Below, in pieces: positions 4,040-40,029 of a stretch of DNA of 50,389 bases (the first letter of the stretch is position 1; each line of letters opens with the position of its first letter). Source of the stretch: Synergistaceae bacterium. Its GTDB lineage: Bacteria; Synergistota; Synergistia; Synergistales; Aminobacteriaceae. Both the position numbers and the translations under genes were made by a program. The DNA lies in the NCBI GenBank assembly GCA_017454625.1, contig JAFTCP010000093.1, positions 1 to 50,389 on the forward strand, read 5' to 3'. The notes under the pieces are model-generated. The model had not been told where the DNA came from and made no database searches. It was given only the letters and a program-made list of their open reading frames with translations.

Positions 4040-4128
4040 AACTCGTTAATTCTCCTTTGTGAATGTGAAATTTTTCTTAAATTCTAGCATATTATTATAT
4101 TCGGATAGCTGACTTCATAATGAAGAAC

Positions 4129-5550
4129 TTAAAAATGCATCTCATCATCAATTACAGGACCTTTCGCACTCGGTCGGGCTTGCTTCACTGTGTTAATAAT
4201 TTTTCTTATCCATCCGCCATGAAATAACTCGCATAAATCCGGTGATTTTCCCATGAGATTATTTTCATCGTTTAATAAAGCAACTCCCCGACAGCCTGTA
4301 GAGCAATGTTTGATGAATTTACAGTTTCGGCATTCATCGTTATGACGCAAAATATCGTTGACTTTTAGATTTATAAAGCTCAGATATTCAGAATATTTCA
4401 GGCATTCACTCAGGCCCTTATCGATAATAAACGGGAAATTTTCCTGCATCTTTATCTCAGAAATCGGGATACACATTAAGGCTCGGCCTTCTGGTGTTAT
4501 GTATATTGAGCTTAGAACGTGTGTGCATGAATAAGTCTTGTCGTGGTCATAACTTTCTCGATAACCCGATATGAAATATTTATCCGGCTCGCTCGGTGAA
4601 GCCGTGAAAAACGAACCTAATAATATTGTTAATGGCATCCCGTCAGAATAATAATATGGCAGATAATCTAAATAAATTTGGAATAATTCAGGTTTCGTGA
4701 TTGATTGCGTGTTAAAATTCTTCTTCCATTCGCCGACGTTTGAAACTGGTGAAGTCTTGAGTGAACGCACTCCAACCGAAGCAAGGTAATTTATGCTCTC
4801 ACGCAGGACATGTTTATTGTCATTATGAATTGCCATCTCTGAACCAGTCGGAAATCCCATATCCCGGCACAGTCTAAACGCCCTATCAACTGCCTTCTCA
4901 GCTCCGGGAATTCCTCTCAGCCAGTCATGAAAGCCAACGCCGTCAAAGCTCATGTTGAACTCCGGATGAATTTTTCTATCGTCAAGCTCACGTAATAATT
5001 TCTCGTTTACTAAGCAGCCATTCGAGTAAATCTGAGTGATATTAATATTTCGCGATAAAAGCTCATCAACAATATCAAGAAAGTCATCACGAATTAACGG
5101 CTCTCCGCCTGTTAAACTCACATTCATAACTCCGCAAGCCGCAAGCTCATTAATAATCTTCATAATGTCATCATGGCTTAATTCCTGAGAACTTGCATCA
5201 GGAGCTGACATGTAACAATGTCGGCATCGATAATTGCATTTTCCAGTTATTGACCAGTGAACACGATTTAGATAACGCGATGGGAATTTTTTATATTCCT
5301 GATTGGGCATGAGTTTTTCTCCTGGTTCGCACGGCTCGATTATTCCGGCTTGGTGAGCTTGCTTAATGGTTGATTGGGTTTCACTGTCGATAAATGGCAT
5401 TGATAAATCTACTTTTCCATTACAATATTTCATGGCCTGGAACTGTCGGGCACTCAAATATGATGTTAATCCTGTCCGAGTGTCAATTAGCGCATATGGT
5501 AAATTTTCCCAGCCTCGTAAAATATATTTCTCGTTCAGCTTGTAATACAT
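4129..5550 (-). CDS. Radical SAM-SPASM peptide maturase (RiPP enzyme)
   Basis: Counted from the ATG at 5550 (473 aa), residues 1-80 resemble a PqqD-like leader-recognition (RRE) domain. The radical SAM cluster motif C105-x3-C109-x2-C112 follows, with the TGGEP SAM-binding motif downstream. The C-terminus carries a full seven-Cys SPASM pattern, CX12GX4C then CX2CX5CX3C then C, which in this family binds two auxiliary 4Fe-4S clusters. Such enzymes cross-link or otherwise modify ribosomal peptides. The likely substrate is the Gly-Gly leader peptide encoded immediately upstream. A TTG 72 nt further upstream (5622) is also open, but it lies inside the terminator hairpin. The ATG at 5550 has AAGGAG 12 nt upstream, so I prefer it. 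The chemistry (thioether, C-C or other) cannot be read from the sequence. Confidence 0.88.
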   Translation of the reverse strand: MYYKLNEKYILRGWENLPYALIDTRTGLTSYLSARQFQAMKYCNGKVDLSMPFIDSETQSTIKQAHQAGIIEPCEPGEKLMPNQEYKKFPSRYLNRVHWSITGKCNYRCRHCYMSAPDASSQELSHDDIMKIINELAACGVMNVSLTGGEPLIRDDFLDIVDELLSRNINITQIYSNGCLVNEKLLRELDDRKIHPEFNMSFDGVGFHDWLRGIPGAEKAVDRAFRLCRDMGFPTGSEMAIHNDNKHVLRESINYLASVGVRSLKTSPVSNVGEWKKNFNTQSITKPELFQIYLDYLPYYYSDGMPLTILLGSFFTASPSEPDKYFISGYRESYDHDKTYSCTHVLSSIYITPEGRALMCIPISEIKMQENFPFIIDKGLSECLKYSEYLSFINLKVNDILRHNDECRNCKFIKHCSTGCRGVALLNDENNLMGKSPDLCELFHGGWIRKIINTVKQARPSAKGPVIDDEMHF

Positions 5551-5577
5551 AAACTTTTTCAGCTCCTTTAAGTCAAT

Positions 5578-5610
5578 AAAAAAACTGCCATTCCGATTAA
5601 AGAATGACAG
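5578..5610 (-). terminator. Hairpin attenuator between RiPP precursor and maturase
   Basis: On the minus strand CTGTCATTC and GAATGGCAG form a 9-bp stem (one G-U pair) around an 8-nt loop. Seven T-strand positions (5578-5584) follow directly. It sits 26 nt after the precursor stop and ahead of the maturase ribosome site. It should end most transcripts after the precursor and let a fraction read through, giving substrate in excess over enzyme. Confidence 0.75.
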
Positions 5611-5635
5611 CACAATTTGCAAAACGGCGTATTAA

Positions 5636-5971
5636 CTATTTGAACACTGGAAACGGGAACGAAATTCCCGATGGACAAGGACCATCGCCTAAAATTCCGC
5701 AGGGGTCTTTATCGACTCCAAATGGACATGATTCAATAAAACCGCCCGCAACCGCACCAAGCTGGCCATCGTTGAGTTCGGTCATCTCGTCTGTTTTATA
5801 GCCGTGAGCCTCTGCAACTTTCTCGATTGCTTCTGCATTGACTTTCTCGGCTTCGTCCTTGAAACCTTTTGAGATCGCTAACTCCGCTAATGCTTTATAA
5901 CCCGCCGTTAAAACTTCAATTTTCACTTTGTCGTCGCTGGAAACAAGTTCCATAAAACTTTTCTCTGCCAT
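5636..5971 (-). CDS. RiPP precursor with Gly-Gly leader and Cys-rich core
   Basis: The 111-aa peptide has a long charged helical leader (1-77) ending in TELNDGQLGAVAGG, the double-glycine form typical of Nif11-like and related leaders. Its predicted core is residues 78-111. The core holds C82, C91 and C99 in a Gly/Pro/Asp-rich setting; C82 and C91 are each followed by Asp at +5. It ends in an aromatic/Pro tail (SFPFPVFK). The next gene is a radical SAM-SPASM enzyme, so the core is probably cross-linked (ranthipeptide- or sactipeptide-like; inference). The start ATG at 5971 has AGAAGG 8 nt upstream and a strong promoter. No C39 peptidase/ABC exporter or immunity gene is adjacent, so processing may occur elsewhere. 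Confidence 0.82.
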   Translation of the reverse strand: MAEKSFMELVSSDDKVKIEVLTAGYKALAELAISKGFKDEAEKVNAEAIEKVAEAHGYKTDEMTELNDGQLGAVAGGFIESCPFGVDKDPCGILGDGPCPSGISFPFPVFK

Positions 5972-6010
5972 GATGAAAACCTTCTTTCGCGTAAATGTAT
6001 TGTGTTTGTA

Positions 6011-6038
6011 ATTATACGAAAAAAAGAAAATACGTCAA
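6011..6038 (-). promoter_or_regulatory. Strong sigma-70-type promoter of RiPP precursor
   Basis: On the minus strand TTGACG (6033-6038) and a perfect TATAAT (6011-6016) are 16 bp apart. They lie about 40 bp before the precursor start. It is the best consensus promoter in the window. Confidence 0.75.
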
Positions 6039-6092
6039 CTACCAATAAAGCAAATTTTCATATTGCCGAAAAAATAATTCTCATGTAAAGTT

Positions 6093-6101
6093 TGCTATAA
6101 T
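6093..6101 (+). promoter_or_regulatory. Extended -10 promoter for dnaX operon
   Basis: TGCTATAAT (6093-6101) is a consensus extended -10 element; no good -35 is seen. Transcription would start near 6108 and include the short reading frame at 6130. It is divergent from the RiPP precursor promoter about 60 bp away. Confidence 0.55.
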
Positions 6102-6129
6102 CATAAATTCTTAACAAGGGAGATTGCAT

Positions 6130-6249
6130 ATGAGCCTGTCATTAATGCTTGCAGGGTTTCGCTTTGCTTGTACGGAGCAATGTATGAGCTTATCGTTACT
6201 GCCTCATGAACTTTGCTTTATGTCATCACGTAAAAACAGGAGAGATTAA
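6130..6249 (+). CDS. Possible 39-codon leader ORF ahead of dnaX
   Basis: An ATG with AAGGGAG 7 nt upstream opens a 39-codon frame ending 3 nt before the dnaX start. It begins MSLSLML and contains a second MSLSLL start (6184), also preceded by a GGAG site. dnaX itself begins MSVSLY, so the frame appears to consist of two diverged copies of the dnaX initiation region. It may be translated and could couple to dnaX, or it may only be a duplication relic. No function is claimed. Confidence 0.3.
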   Translation: MSLSLMLAGFRFACTEQCMSLSLLPHELCFMSSRKNRRD

Positions 6250-6252
6250 TTC

Positions 6253-34038: not shown

Positions 34039-37000
34039 ATGGCATCAATGAGTATCAACGGTGTAGTTTCCGGCATGGACTGGGAAAGCATGATTGATGA
34101 GATCATTACTGCCGCCGCAAAACCCGCACAAGTCCAAGTCAACAAGAAGACGAATTTGCAGAACAAAAAGAGCCTCTTTGAAGAAATGAAGGTTATGATG
34201 AACAGTCTGCAATCTTCATTGACGACACTCAAACTCCCGTCAACTTACACGGCAAAAGAGATTGAGATTGAGAATTTAGACGGAGGCTCGTACAAGAAAA
34301 TTCTGACGGCTACGGTTAATGCTGATGCTGAAGTCAGCGTTCATGATATTAATGTCAAGCAGATTGCTACGGCTCAAACTGTACGCTCTCGGCAGATGAC
34401 GGGTTCGACAATTTCAAGCTATGTCGGCGGAAAAGATAAAGTTATGACGATTACCGCAGGAGGCCAGACTATTGACGTTGACGTGAAAGCCTCAGACAGT
34501 CTGCAATCCCTGAAGTCCAGAATTAACAACGTCATAAAATCCCTCGATAATCCCATGAATTTAACGGCTTCGGTCGTCGATAACAAACTCGTGCTTAAAA
34601 GCGACAGCACAGGATTAGGCCAGACGAAAATTGAAGGGACTGTTAGGGGCGGTTACAGTTCAAGCGGAGTTACCAGCTTAAAGGGATTAATCACGAATGC
34701 GGACTCCGGCGCAACGGCGGATATTTCCGTAACGAAAGATAATTACGACAATCTCAAGATTTCAAGCGGAAGCACGACTTATACACGCGGAACTGATTAC
34801 GTTATCGTGAATAACAATGAAATTCGCTGGAAACAGTACGAGGACACCGACAACGAAATAAAACTCGGCAAAAGCATCAACAGCATGAAATACACGATGA
34901 ACTCAAATGATGTCTACACTGTTACAGGAACTCAGGGGACAAGTGAAGCTGACCTCTCAGCATTAAATATAATTGACAACGGAACTTTGAGCTCACGAGT
35001 GAAGATTAAGGACGATAACGGAGTTGAATATACATACGGCCAGGACTTTACGATTGAGGACGGAAAAGTTGTATGGCTTGATGCTCCTGCTGAGACGAAA
35101 GAACCTGACACTTACACGGTGAATTACAGCAAGACTGAAGCGTTGACATCAACAATCAGCGGCACAAAAGCTAGTTCAACCGGAGGCCCGGCTTCTTTCA
35201 CTGTGAATTACACAAAGACGATTGCAAACGAAAATTTCACGGACACCCTGAACTACAATAATGCCACGACAATACCAGGATTAGGCATGTCCACGTTTGA
35301 AGGCTATGACGGCGTAGAAATTGTTACGTCAAATGCAAGCGGCCGTGATGTAAGATACGTAAAATTCGATGACCCCAGCGAAGTATCATTAACTTTCACA
35401 CCTTCGGACGGCGGTGATGCAACAAGCTACACTTACGGGCCTCAAGTTGTTTTGCGTGAAAGCGGCTCAGCAACTTCGGAAACGGCTTATCTTGTATGGT
35501 CCCGCGACAGCGTTTACACTAACATTCAGGGCGGAAGCGTAACCAGTACAGCGATGCCGACAGCAGGAAGCAATCAATCTTCAGCAGGAACTTACACGTT
35601 CACTTACAAACATAAATACACGTCTCAAAACGGAGTTTCTCAAGAAGTCCTTAATGCGGCAGGTTCTGACCTCACGAATATAAGTATCACTGACGCGAGC
35701 GGAAAAACTTATACGAACGGAACGGATTTCACAATTTCATCTGACGGAACAATCAACTGGGCAACAAGCGCACCTTCAGCAGATGATGAGATAAGTGATA
35801 CTAAATTTGATGACTTTGCGGCGAATTACAGGGAATATTACAGCCTTGATGATGACGCTGACCTCCCGACAATAACGCTGACTGACGGCGAAGGAGTTAT
35901 GAGAACGTATATTGACCCTGCCGATACTTCGCTGTTCACGATGACGAACACGACAACCGGCGAAACTTACGAATACGGGAAAGATTACGTTATTCGCGTC
36001 AATGACAATGGCGATGGTTATGTTTTCTCGTGGGCAATCTCGTCTGATAAGAACGGCGACGGTTATAGAAATATTCTTGATGCTAATGCTTCTGTGATTG
36101 CTTATGCCAGAGAAAAAGGCTTCACAACTTACGGAATGAAGGCATCTCCCACTTCTGCTGAGGAATATAATTTTACGTTCAGCGGTGAAGTTACGAAGAC
36201 TGACTCCGGAACCGTAAACAAAACCGACGCTGACGACGATAAAACGCTCGCTAATGTCCTGAAAAACGTAACGGTTGATAGTGAGGATTACGACGATGAT
36301 ACTATACTCAGCATCACCGACGGAACTACGACTTACGTAATGGGAACTGATTACAAGATTGACAGTTCGGGAAAAATTGTTTGGCTCAATCAGAGTGATG
36401 AAGCCCCGACATCATACACAGCAACATATTCTAATCCATCAATCACTGTTACAGGCTCAAACGCAAACGCAAGATCTTATAACCTTACAACAGCCCAGAA
36501 CGGTTTCCCGAAATATACGGACTTTCAGGCGTTGTATAAAGCAACAAAGGGTACTGATGTTCCAACAGTAACAGCCTCAGGATTAGTATATATAGCTGAT
36601 GAGGATTTCTTTTCTGTCGAGGGTTACGAATACGGCAAAGATTTTGTTGTTATCAGAGGCGGCGGCGGACTAGTTTCAACTATAGGGGATTACAGCCTCG
36701 TTATTGCTTGGGCACCTGACGGAATAGTGAGGAATTATCCCAATCAAACGATGTCTGATATTACATCACATTCAAATCCCTATACCGTTTCGATGCAGTC
36801 AATAATTTCCGACGAAATCAGCACGGACAGCACAGAAAAGCTCACGGATATTCTTGGTCTGACGAGTTTATCCGACATGTCAAAAGTTGTTATCACAGCC
36901 GGAGGAAATATATATCAATATAATTCTACAGCAACTACGGTTAATGACTTGGCCGAAGATGAATATTTTCTTGATGACGGCGTTGTGAAATTGGGAGTTC

Positions 37001-40000
37001 CTGACTACACAACCCCTAAACGTCCAACAGGAAGCTATACTCTGACTTATGAGGCTTTCGATGACCTCACAGCTTCAGATACTTATGCGGGAGCTTCTCA
37101 GCAGGATATTGCTATAACTGTCGATTCGGGTTACGGCGATATTGGAGGAAATCAATTAAGCTATGAGCAAATTTTAGAGAACACGGGATTATCAAGCTCA
37201 TCAAGCAATGCCAACTTCGCAAAATATTTCTCGCTCGTTGACGAGGACGGCAATACTTACACGTACGGGACTGATTACAAGATAATTCAGGGGTCAACGT
37301 ACGGAACAACAAGCAGTCATTACGCGGCTGTAAGCTGGCTTGACGACGGAACAACTCCAACGACCGGCAAGACTTTTACGCTAACTTACACCGGCAGTGA
37401 GACAATGGAACTCACCGATGCAATAACCCGTTCTGCTCAGGACACAATAACTTCAACGTCAACAGTCATGCCCACATACGGAACGTTTATCAGCGCCGAC
37501 GCAATCAGAATTACTGACGGCAAGAATAATTATTATCTGGGTCAGGACTTCACGATTGACATTGACGCTTACACATATAGAAACGGAAGCGTTGTTCTTG
37601 ACGAGAATAATAATTTCGTTGGCAATGCAGTAATCAAATGGAACACAGCAACCGTAGGCGAGCCGAATTTCCGGACAAGATTTGAAGACGCAAGCTCAGT
37701 GATAATTACGGCCTCCGACGGAACAACTTACTCTCTCGAAAACGAAGACTTTGACGTGTTCTCTTACGGCGACGGTTACGCGATAATTAACTGGGCCGAC
37801 GATGTTACTCCGGATAGTTCGCTGACTTACACGGTAACGGCTGTTAAAGACGGAATTACTAAGACTTACGACCTCAACAGCGATTTACAGAGAATGACCC
37901 AGAGAGCCGCATGGTTCGAAGATGAACATTCTGACAGCTACGATATTATCGTTACGACTAACGACAACACAAATATCACTTTCACGGGGAATTACAACAA
38001 TGATGAGCTTGAAATTCTGCCGACAGGTTTACCGGATATTTCGGACTTTGACGACGGAACAGTAACGATTACTCAGGGCACGAAAACTTTTTATGACGGC
38101 GTTGACTTCACAATCGAAGAGGACGACGACGGAAATGCTGTAGTTCAGTGGATTACGGACAGTGAAGGCGGCTACGAATGGTATTATCCGAACTCCGGCA
38201 TAAACTCAACTTACACGATTAATCTCACTAGTTCAGACGGAACAGTAAAAACTTACTTAGCCACTCGCAACTACAAAGAAACGCTTGACATGAGCGATTA
38301 CGGCTTCACGTCTTACAACGGGAATATCAGCGTGAAAACGACCGATGAAGACGGCAATGAAGTTTACGTTGATGCTTCGACTACGGAAGTTGCAAGGGAC
38401 GCGAGCGGAAACATAATTTATCAGCAGGAGAGAAAATCCCGGCAGGTTCCGGATTTGGACGAGGACGGAGATTATCAGTTTGACTTGAGCGGGAATATCC
38501 TTTACAAGACGGAATATTATTACGAGAATAAACTTGACGAAAACGGTAATCCCATTCCCGTAATGGTCTCGTCCGGAAATAATGCGCTCGCTGATGCCTA
38601 CTCCTTCAACGTTACAACAGGAAAAACCGGCGGCGAAAATACACTGTTCAACTTCAACTGGCTCACACCGTCAAGAACTTCAAGAACAGGACTTCCAGCA
38701 TACGGCGATGAACTCAATATTAATTATGAATACGACGCTAACACGTTCTCTTTGAGCGGCACGGATGACGTTCTTGATGATTTAGGCCTCGACGAGTCTT
38801 ACTGGTATAACTCGGACGGAACGGAGAACAACGCGTATTACACGGGAGCTCACAACGCGATATTTGACCTTGACGGAGCCGAAATTGAACGCGACACTAA
38901 CGACATCGGCGAAAGTTACGGCAATGAAGTTGCGAACTTGAAGGGAGTAACTCTTCACCTTAAAGGGCCCGGAAGCGTCTCACTTGATATTTTCCATGAT
39001 GCCGAGAAAGCCGTCGAATCAATCAACACTTTCAAGGACAATTACAATGACCTCATGAGCTGGATGAATACGCGAATGACTGAAAGCCAAGTTGACGAGG
39101 ACACAGCCGCAACGGTTGATAGCGACGATTTCAGAATGAGATGGGGACTTCTTCACGGCAATTCATTATTACGCAACACGAAAAGCCAGATGCGAAGTAT
39201 TACGTCTCAGAACTTCACTTTCTCGTTCAACGAGCGCAAAAGTTCGCAGGAAATTTACGGAACTATGGCCAATAACGGCTTGAGGTCCGACGCGACTTTG
39301 AGGCTCCGCATAGGGTCAACTTATTCTGACTTGACAATTTCGCCGTATTACACTCTTCAGCAGATTGTTGACATGATTAACGACAGCACTAATCCCGCAA
39401 TGAGAAATATGTATTACGACGAAGAAGGCAAACTCAGAGACCAGCCATTGCTTAAAGCCTCAATTGTTGATGACAAACTCGTGATTAACTCGACTTCCAA
39501 CGACACAATCACAGTCTCAGGTTCTGCCGCGTTGAATGCCCTCAAGATGAATTACACTTACAAGGGAGTTTATCAGCTCGGATTAGGCGTGAATGCTTCG
39601 GCTGAATTAGGCTCATCATCAACTGTTGACTTCACGAAGGTTGAGAGCGGGGAGCTTGAGTTTAACGAGAGTAAATTCATGGAGGCCCTTGAAGATAATC
39701 CCGACGAGGTTCAAGAGTTAATGAGGATGTTCGCCAACCAAATGGACAGCTGGTGTAAATCGATGCTCTCAAGCGCGACGGAGGGCAACGCAAAAGGAAC
39801 GTTAACCCGCCAGATTGATGATATTGACACGCAGATACAATCGATTGACGAGTATTTAGAGAAGTATCAAGACAGATTAGACCGTCAGGAAGAGAGTTTG
39901 CGTTCAAAATTCTCGGCGGCTGAAAGTCAGATTGCTAAACTCTCGCAGCAGGCCAATTCAATAGCTTCAATACTGAACATGTTAAACGGCAACAACTCCG

Positions 40001-40029
40001 GAAGCTCAAACTACACGGCTCAGACTTGA
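34039..40029 (+). CDS. fliD: Giant flagellar cap / hook-associated protein 2
   Basis: FliD caps the growing filament and guides flagellin folding. The N-terminal FliD_N domain (1-100; MASMSINGVVSGMDWESMID), a Flagellin_IN motif (about 135-195) and the C-terminal FliD_C region (about 1634-1996, ending in a coiled coil with SIASILNML) are standard. Between them lies an insert of about 1400 residues made of a dozen or so diverged beta-rich repeats of 70-110 aa. Each has the pattern Y-x2-G-x-D-[FY]-x-I...[IV]-x-W. Ordinary FliD has 450-700 residues; this one has 1996. The insert is the surface-exposed, variable part of the cap. AGGAGG lies 11 nt upstream. The 3' end overlaps the opposing glycosyltransferase by 10 bp. 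No other flagellar gene is present here. Confidence 0.9.
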   Translation: MASMSINGVVSGMDWESMIDEIITAAAKPAQVQVNKKTNLQNKKSLFEEMKVMMNSLQSSLTTLKLPSTYTAKEIEIENLDGGSYKKILTATVNADAEVSVHDINVKQIATAQTVRSRQMTGSTISSYVGGKDKVMTITAGGQTIDVDVKASDSLQSLKSRINNVIKSLDNPMNLTASVVDNKLVLKSDSTGLGQTKIEGTVRGGYSSSGVTSLKGLITNADSGATADISVTKDNYDNLKISSGSTTYTRGTDYVIVNNNEIRWKQYEDTDNEIKLGKSINSMKYTMNSNDVYTVTGTQGTSEADLSALNIIDNGTLSSRVKIKDDNGVEYTYGQDFTIEDGKVVWLDAPAETKEPDTYTVNYSKTEALTSTISGTKASSTGGPASFTVNYTKTIANENFTDTLNYNNATTIPGLGMSTFEGYDGVEIVTSNASGRDVRYVKFDDPSEVSLTFTPSDGGDATSYTYGPQVVLRESGSATSETAYLVWSRDSVYTNIQGGSVTSTAMPTAGSNQSSAGTYTFTYKHKYTSQNGVSQEVLNAAGSDLTNISITDASGKTYTNGTDFTISSDGTINWATSAPSADDEISDTKFDDFAANYREYYSLDDDADLPTITLTDGEGVMRTYIDPADTSLFTMTNTTTGETYEYGKDYVIRVNDNGDGYVFSWAISSDKNGDGYRNILDANASVIAYAREKGFTTYGMKASPTSAEEYNFTFSGEVTKTDSGTVNKTDADDDKTLANVLKNVTVDSEDYDDDTILSITDGTTTYVMGTDYKIDSSGKIVWLNQSDEAPTSYTATYSNPSITVTGSNANARSYNLTTAQNGFPKYTDFQALYKATKGTDVPTVTASGLVYIADEDFFSVEGYEYGKDFVVIRGGGGLVSTIGDYSLVIAWAPDGIVRNYPNQTMSDITSHSNPYTVSMQSIISDEISTDSTEKLTDILGLTSLSDMSKVVITAGGNIYQYNSTATTVNDLAEDEYFLDDGVVKLGVPDYTTPKRPTGSYTLTYEAFDDLTASDTYAGASQQDIAITVDSGYGDIGGNQLSYEQILENTGLSSSSSNANFAKYFSLVDEDGNTYTYGTDYKIIQGSTYGTTSSHYAAVSWLDDGTTPTTGKTFTLTYTGSETMELTDAITRSAQDTITSTSTVMPTYGTFISADAIRITDGKNNYYLGQDFTIDIDAYTYRNGSVVLDENNNFVGNAVIKWNTATVGEPNFRTRFEDASSVIITASDGTTYSLENEDFDVFSYGDGYAIINWADDVTPDSSLTYTVTAVKDGITKTYDLNSDLQRMTQRAAWFEDEHSDSYDIIVTTNDNTNITFTGNYNNDELEILPTGLPDISDFDDGTVTITQGTKTFYDGVDFTIEEDDDGNAVVQWITDSEGGYEWYYPNSGINSTYTINLTSSDGTVKTYLATRNYKETLDMSDYGFTSYNGNISVKTTDEDGNEVYVDASTTEVARDASGNIIYQQERKSRQVPDLDEDGDYQFDLSGNILYKTEYYYENKLDENGNPIPVMVSSGNNALADAYSFNVTTGKTGGENTLFNFNWLTPSRTSRTGLPAYGDELNINYEYDANTFSLSGTDDVLDDLGLDESYWYNSDGTENNAYYTGAHNAIFDLDGAEIERDTNDIGESYGNEVANLKGVTLHLKGPGSVSLDIFHDAEKAVESINTFKDNYNDLMSWMNTRMTESQVDEDTAATVDSDDFRMRWGLLHGNSLLRNTKSQMRSITSQNFTFSFNERKSSQEIYGTMANNGLRSDATLRLRIGSTYSDLTISPYYTLQQIVDMINDSTNPAMRNMYYDEEGKLRDQPLLKASIVDDKLVINSTSNDTITVSGSAALNALKMNYTYKGVYQLGLGVNASAELGSSSTVDFTKVESGELEFNESKFMEALEDNPDEVQELMRMFANQMDSWCKSMLSSATEGNAKGTLTRQIDDIDTQIQSIDEYLEKYQDRLDRQEESLRSKFSAAESQIAKLSQQANSIASILNMLNGNNSGSSNYTAQT

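Follow-up and report, generated by a model that had tools for sequence, protein, structure and literature searches.

Does the pair of adjacent genes on the minus strand of this DNA form a working RiPP cassette and, if so, what does its enzyme do to its peptide? The stretch analysed (the window, 50,389 nucleotides) comes from the genome of an uncultured ruminant-gut Synergistaceae bacterium (2.47 Mb, 98% complete). A precursor gene of 111 codons (5971-5636) is followed, after a gap of 85 nt, by an enzyme gene of 473 codons. The initial annotation covered 5578-6038, which corresponds to the interval from the terminator hairpin through the −35 box, and had read the locus as a precursor with a radical SAM/SPASM enzyme. 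That reading was borne out: the genes are real, the enzyme is predicted to fold like peptide maturases and to carry an RRE-like domain, and the leader is related to Nif11. Paralogues, related leaders and predicted structure put the cassette far beyond chance, and it is a genuine, intact and highly paralogous RiPP cassette. Its features are collected in Table 1.

Table 1. Positions of the cassette features in the window and the basis for each assignment
Feature	Position	Strand	Basis or remark
Sigma-70-like promoter of the cassette, TTGACG-16-TATAAT	6011..6038	-	11/12 consensus matches; alone no proof of function
Leader, residues 1-77, diverged Nif11 type ending AVAGG	5741..5971	-	Profile search and leader similarity
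Core, residues 78-111 (C82, C91, C99), and stop codon	5636..5740	-	One C-x3-G-x-G (C91-G95-G97) and two C-x2-G units
Terminator/attenuator hairpin and T-run, between precursor and enzyme	5584..5611	-	11 pairs, -14 kcal/mol
Radical SAM/SPASM peptide maturase, 473 aa	4129..5550	-	Pfam, alignment, predicted structure
N-terminal RRE-like leader-binding domain (putative), residues 1-88	5287..5550	-	Predicted fold; matches to RREs
CxxxCxxC motif CNYRCRHC, radical SAM cluster	5215..5238	-	Three Cys invariant in 26 homologues
SPASM region, seven Cys, residues 342-440	4231..4527	-	Alignment of 26 homologues
Intergenic interval with the cassette, 140-aa gene to dnaX	4040..6252		Seven sibling species have the two genes side by side with no cassette between

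The promoter box ends 39 nt upstream of the precursor ATG. Promoter-like sites were not above chance in total count, and this one is singled out by its place before that ATG. The intergenic hairpin gave a z of -6.15 over a 38-nt segment. Hairpins occupy the same position in four other cassettes of the same genome, one on contig C17 and three on contig C85, and their sequences differ. Partial termination between substrate and enzyme therefore looks like a conserved design, with the presumed function discussed below. A search of the window against Rfam returned no matches.

The open reading frame list extends the enzyme to a TTG at 5622. We place its start at the ATG at 5550, which has GGAG upstream and is aligned with the starts of homologues. 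The catalytic motifs named in the initial annotation were all recovered: the three cysteines of CxxxCxxC are C105, C109 and C112, TGGEP occupies residues 147-151, and the seven-Cys SPASM pattern consists of C342, C360, C407, C410, C416, C420 and C440. Across 26 homologues six of these seven never vary, C342 is kept in at least 90%, and TGGE is present in all rows of the alignment. The Pfam Radical_SAM model (PF04055) matched the enzyme with 71.5 bits (cutoff 29.5), and the Pfam SPASM model scored 15.2, below its cutoff of 21.5. None of the 25 curated NCBIfam models among the matches listed exceeded its cutoff, the best being ScmE with 98.7 bits (cutoff 400). None of these models claims the enzyme; the initial annotation had judged by eye that the core sequence fits no class known to it.

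The predicted structure of the enzyme (pLDDT 88.7) had its best fold matches in SkfB (Z 26.3), anSME, ChlB, SuiB (Z 24.7) and CteB (Z 24.4). Residues 1-88, modelled alone (pLDDT 92), matched the RREs of TbiB1, lasso B1, TigE, TruD, MccB, PbtF and PqqD. These matches are moderate (Z 4-7.8, best Foldseek E 0.0075); RREs dominate them, although a few unrelated proteins are listed too. Together, the fold matches and the RRE-like domain argue for a peptide maturase rather than a non-peptide SPASM enzyme, and the enzyme does not group with the latter as far as sequence and fold tell.

The leader of the precursor ends in GAVAGG (residues 72-77), as first described. A GG cleavage-site motif and a hypervariable core are traits of Nif11-derived RiPP precursors, and both are present. 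The window precursor matched neither PF07862 nor TIGR03798. Its paralogues on contigs C150 and C50 pass TIGR03798 with 38.4 and 37.3 bits (cutoff 32.3), and when an HMM was built from non-Synergistales leaders only, the window precursor scored 16.7 bits (E 0.009), while the highest score among 300 shuffles was 5.3. Judged by family profile and paralogues, the leader is related to Nif11 and homologous to the other leaders of the family, and too diverged for either curated model.

The cassette is one of many in its genome. We found at least eight enzyme loci of the family: the window, C17, C50, three on C85, C150 and a broken one on contig C39. Eight precursors were identified by similarity and further ones by profile; they accompany each of the enzyme copies, share the leader type and differ in their cores. 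The precursors on C85 have leaders that are 78-92% identical and cores that are 10-28% identical. The flanking genes of the window site were not seen beside the other cassettes examined, which thus sit at other sites. Elsewhere in the genome, L054:4-1245 (G000:C107) holds four Nif11-like precursors in tandem, their tails rich in Cys (CSDYCTNYCSDITCCC), and no maturase of the window family was detected on that contig.

The initial annotation had remarked that no exporter or peptidase lies beside the cassette. This is true locally but misleading for the system, because a probable NHLM exporter with a C39 (Gly-Gly) peptidase is encoded at the C17 locus. That locus comprises a precursor, an enzyme, a response regulator, a short NHLM HlyD-like gene (154 aa, a partial match of 30 of 156 bits), an NHLM ABC gene with the C39 peptidase and a second NHLM ABC gene, together with MacB-, TolC- and adaptor-like genes recognised by eye. 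NHLM_micro_ABC1 (TIGR03796) scored 855.8 bits here (cutoff 853.3) and NHLM ABC2 (TIGR03797) 677 bits, short of its cutoff of 709. The C39 peptidase is the only strong one in the genome. The closest relative of the window cassette, in genome G065 (64% identity), has two precursors and, by eye, an adjoining gene resembling the HlyD-like gene of C17. Absence of an exporter is therefore a trait of the dispersed copy and not of the system. One or both NHLM ABC genes lay on the retrieved stretch in 38 of 80 related loci, many of them on short contigs. From genome content only, the C17 exporter could serve the window cassette in trans. No immunity gene was found for the window cassette. Leader-like sequences of the form LSxDxLxxVAGG also occur before tails that resemble zinc fingers or zinc ribbons (for example CPVAGCGFECKNFGELNIHMRTKH), often with the same exporters nearby (L018:6315-6512 in G000:C17, L098, L100, L134, L145 and L127).

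With the window enzyme alone as query, public genomes gave no matches. Relatives in GTDB genomes were recovered only when an alignment of the paralogues was used as the query, which yielded at least 329. The best 80 of these came mostly from gut Synergistaceae, Lachnospiraceae, Oscillospiraceae, Atopobiaceae, Coriobacteriales, Selenomonadaceae, Erysipelotrichaceae and Treponema; Coriobacteriia and Selenomonas are among the taxa with relatives. At 62 of the 80 loci a Nif11-type precursor lies on the same strand within 1.5 kb of the enzyme, and leader density around related enzymes was 0.325 per kb near them versus 0.041 far from them. Viral contigs yielded only distant radical SAM proteins, and no phage carriage was seen.

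The cores of these relatives show a strong and testable signature, CxCxxxGxG, which about half of the distinct ones carry, usually three times. Several CxC motifs occur in 66 of 136 distinct cores, and 179 of the 192 CxC sites in such cores read CxCxxxGxG (shuffles: mean 2.2, maximum 7); exactly three copies are present in 48 cores. Gly stands at +6 from any Cys in 91% of cases in CxC-class cores (z 30). In the enzyme tree the window falls in a clade of nine Synergistaceae enzymes (99% support) with shorter, diverse cores. This clade lies near ten enzymes that keep the CxC repeat, both within one set of 24 rows, and core class follows the tree closely, with 8 changes where shuffling gives 23.7. 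Precursors beside window-clade enzymes (L062:2918-3527 and L039:7251-7562) have cores with nearly or entirely no Cys (ESWWEIYKRLLESLGA), and could show whether enzymes of this clade act on something besides Cys.

The window core, FIESCPFGVDKDPCGILGDGPCPSGISFPFPVFK, has its cysteines where they were first placed, and D87 and D96 follow the first two at +5. This Cys/Asp spacing, which the initial annotation had singled out, did not hold up as diagnostic: Asp is missing from those positions in the closest relative, and the signature shared across the family is Cys followed by Gly at +4/+6. All three window cysteines have Gly at +3 or +4, with a shuffle p of 0.012. Two Asp at +5 gave the same value when the window core was shuffled, for an offset picked afterwards, and 0.088 for any common offset from 1 to 7. 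As the Gly and Asp rules thus score equally, the case for Gly is carried by the relatives and not by the window core alone. The core of the closest relative contains CNILGG, which matches CGILGDG of the C91 unit in the window. For C82 and C99 the Gly is at +3, a spacing also seen in streptosactin, whose Cys31-Gly34 link is a short-spaced Cys-to-Gly ring in a peptide with un-nested rings (PMC8172795). The window core is therefore best seen as a reduced family member with one clear CxxxGxG, in which Gly is a better candidate acceptor than Asp at +5, and Cys-to-Gly thioether rings are our best guess for its product. Sister enzymes in the window's own clade accompany cores that lack these Gly spacings, and some of them lack Cys, so the Gly acceptor rule may not be valid within this clade.

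The variability of those cores also favours a different chemistry, in which the enzyme introduces another radical SAM modification (a C-C or C-O link, epimerisation or other) not centred on Cys, the cysteines being otherwise modified or in disulfides. SuiB, a C-C linking enzyme that makes the Lys-Trp C-C bond of streptide, is among the top fold matches. However, the thioether makers SkfB and CteB match the fold about equally well, and Cys is the most constant feature of the family cores; we regard this alternative as unlikely, though it deserves consideration. Somewhat less probable again is a ranthipeptide-like link from Cys to a side-chain carbon of Asp at +5 (C82-D87 and C91-D96). The two Asp residues and the CxxxD pattern of freyrasin speak for it, and there is precedent for radical SAM enzymes joining Cys to a beta or gamma carbon (PMC8188230). 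Against it, the third cysteine, C99, has Ser at +5, the spacing by itself is weak by the shuffle values above, no Asp is present in the cores of the closest relative, and across cores Asp shows no enrichment at +5. Splicease (PlpX-type) chemistry, which requires YG, was rejected, as the window core has no Tyr and there is no partner gene. That the cassette is a decaying, no longer active copy is improbable: paralogues are often broken (C39, and copies in G005, G065 and G066) and the window core differs from the usual repeat, but both window genes are intact with all catalytic residues kept, and promoter, ribosome-binding sites and hairpin are in place. Among the broken paralogues, enzymes of two species, G000:C39 (L021:5667-5700) and G005:C57 (L042 minus, ~6450-6430), are each disrupted by an insert of ~22-23 nt at the same codon (GGCTGGCA.../TTGGTTACGAGG). 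The two inserts are alike in sequence and resemble hairpins; the one in C39 occurs only once in its genome.

On balance we think it probable that the cassette is a compact RiPP module in which Cys-Gly thioethers are formed under guidance of leader and RRE, cleavage at GG77 and export are provided in trans, and the products are competition peptides. The precursor would be transcribed from its own promoter, and the hairpin would probably pass part of the transcripts into the enzyme gene, giving an excess of substrate. The predicted RRE domain of the enzyme would bind the Nif11-like leader, and the radical SAM centre with the auxiliary SPASM clusters would probably install thioethers from core Cys to nearby Gly. 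C91-G95 is the most likely link; C82-G85 and C99-G102 are less sure. The product would contain small un-nested rings, each with a loss of ~2.016 Da. The C39 peptidase of the NHLM exporter encoded elsewhere in the genome would remove the leader, cleaving behind GG77, and the peptide would be exported. Such copies, with related leaders and different cores, are likely to supply a diversified repertoire of secreted peptides with which the bacterium competes in the ruminant gut.

For the family at large we suggest, tentatively and with more doubt than for the Cys-Gly module, a widespread gut RiPP class so far without description. Its product would be three mini-hairpins, each a CxCxxxGxG with nested C1-G9 and C3-G7 thioethers, and the Synergistaceae genus would have dispersed, diversifying cassettes sharing one exporter. 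C1/G9 and C3/G7 would be the pairs of a tight hairpin, by analogy with RumC2, whose nested CxC links join Cys22 to Asn35 and Cys24 to Glu31 (PMC8172795).

Several known systems share parts of this arrangement. The sactipeptide maturases SkfB, AlbA, RumMC2 and GggB of streptosactin have the RRE-radical SAM-SPASM layout of the window enzyme, with SkfB its best fold match. Unlike those systems, the window family has a long Nif11-type leader, an NHLM exporter and many dispersed copies, and includes relatives with tandem CxCx3GxG cores. Ranthipeptide maturases of the CteB type are likewise radical SAM-SPASM enzymes with an RRE; the class has a six-Cys precursor, whereas the window precursor is of Nif11 type and the acceptor pattern of the family does not fit Cys-to-Asp. 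SuiB matches over its full length, RRE included, but the window core has no Trp. TIGR04103 (nif11-class radical SAM maturase 3) shares the combination of Nif11 precursor and SPASM enzyme; membership was rejected at 67 bits (cutoff 725). The Nif11-derived (N11P) precursors with NHLM/NHLP export share the long GG-ended leader, the hypervariable core and paralogous expansion, and their export genes TIGR03794, TIGR03796 and TIGR03797 have probable counterparts at C17, with TIGR03796 over its cutoff (Haft et al. 2010, PMC2887384). The N11P partners described there are heterocycle and lanthionine enzymes, and the term 'radical SAM' is absent from the text. A literature search, with most subscription journals outside its reach, returned no description or name for a Nif11/radical SAM family like that of the window. 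The family is apparently unnamed in what we could find, a silence that is not proof of novelty.

An orphan two-gene cassette is tied to a large radical SAM peptide family of ruminant and other gut bacteria. One genome offers a panel of substrates with related leaders, very different cores and related enzymes, on which to follow how the chemistry of an enzyme lineage shifts as the substrate changes. Should the products prove antimicrobial, the family would provide ring-stabilised peptides from the rumen.

Members of the family (E 1e-50) occur in 13 of 43 species of the genus. The distance from the 140-aa gene to dnaX, 2.2 kb in the window, is 96-813 bp in seven sibling species that have no cassette between the two genes. 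A different small gene occupies this gap in one sibling, and its apparent remnant is found in another (L161 and L162 intergenic); the gap therefore seems to be a place of gene turnover. The cassette may have been gained between these two housekeeping genes in the window lineage, or repeatedly lost in the siblings; both are possible. Neither a transposase nor a terminal repeat was seen at the site. Elsewhere in the window, positions 34039-40029 hold an open frame of 1996 aa whose start and end resemble FliD, the flagellar cap protein, by eye, and whose middle is very long and repetitive.
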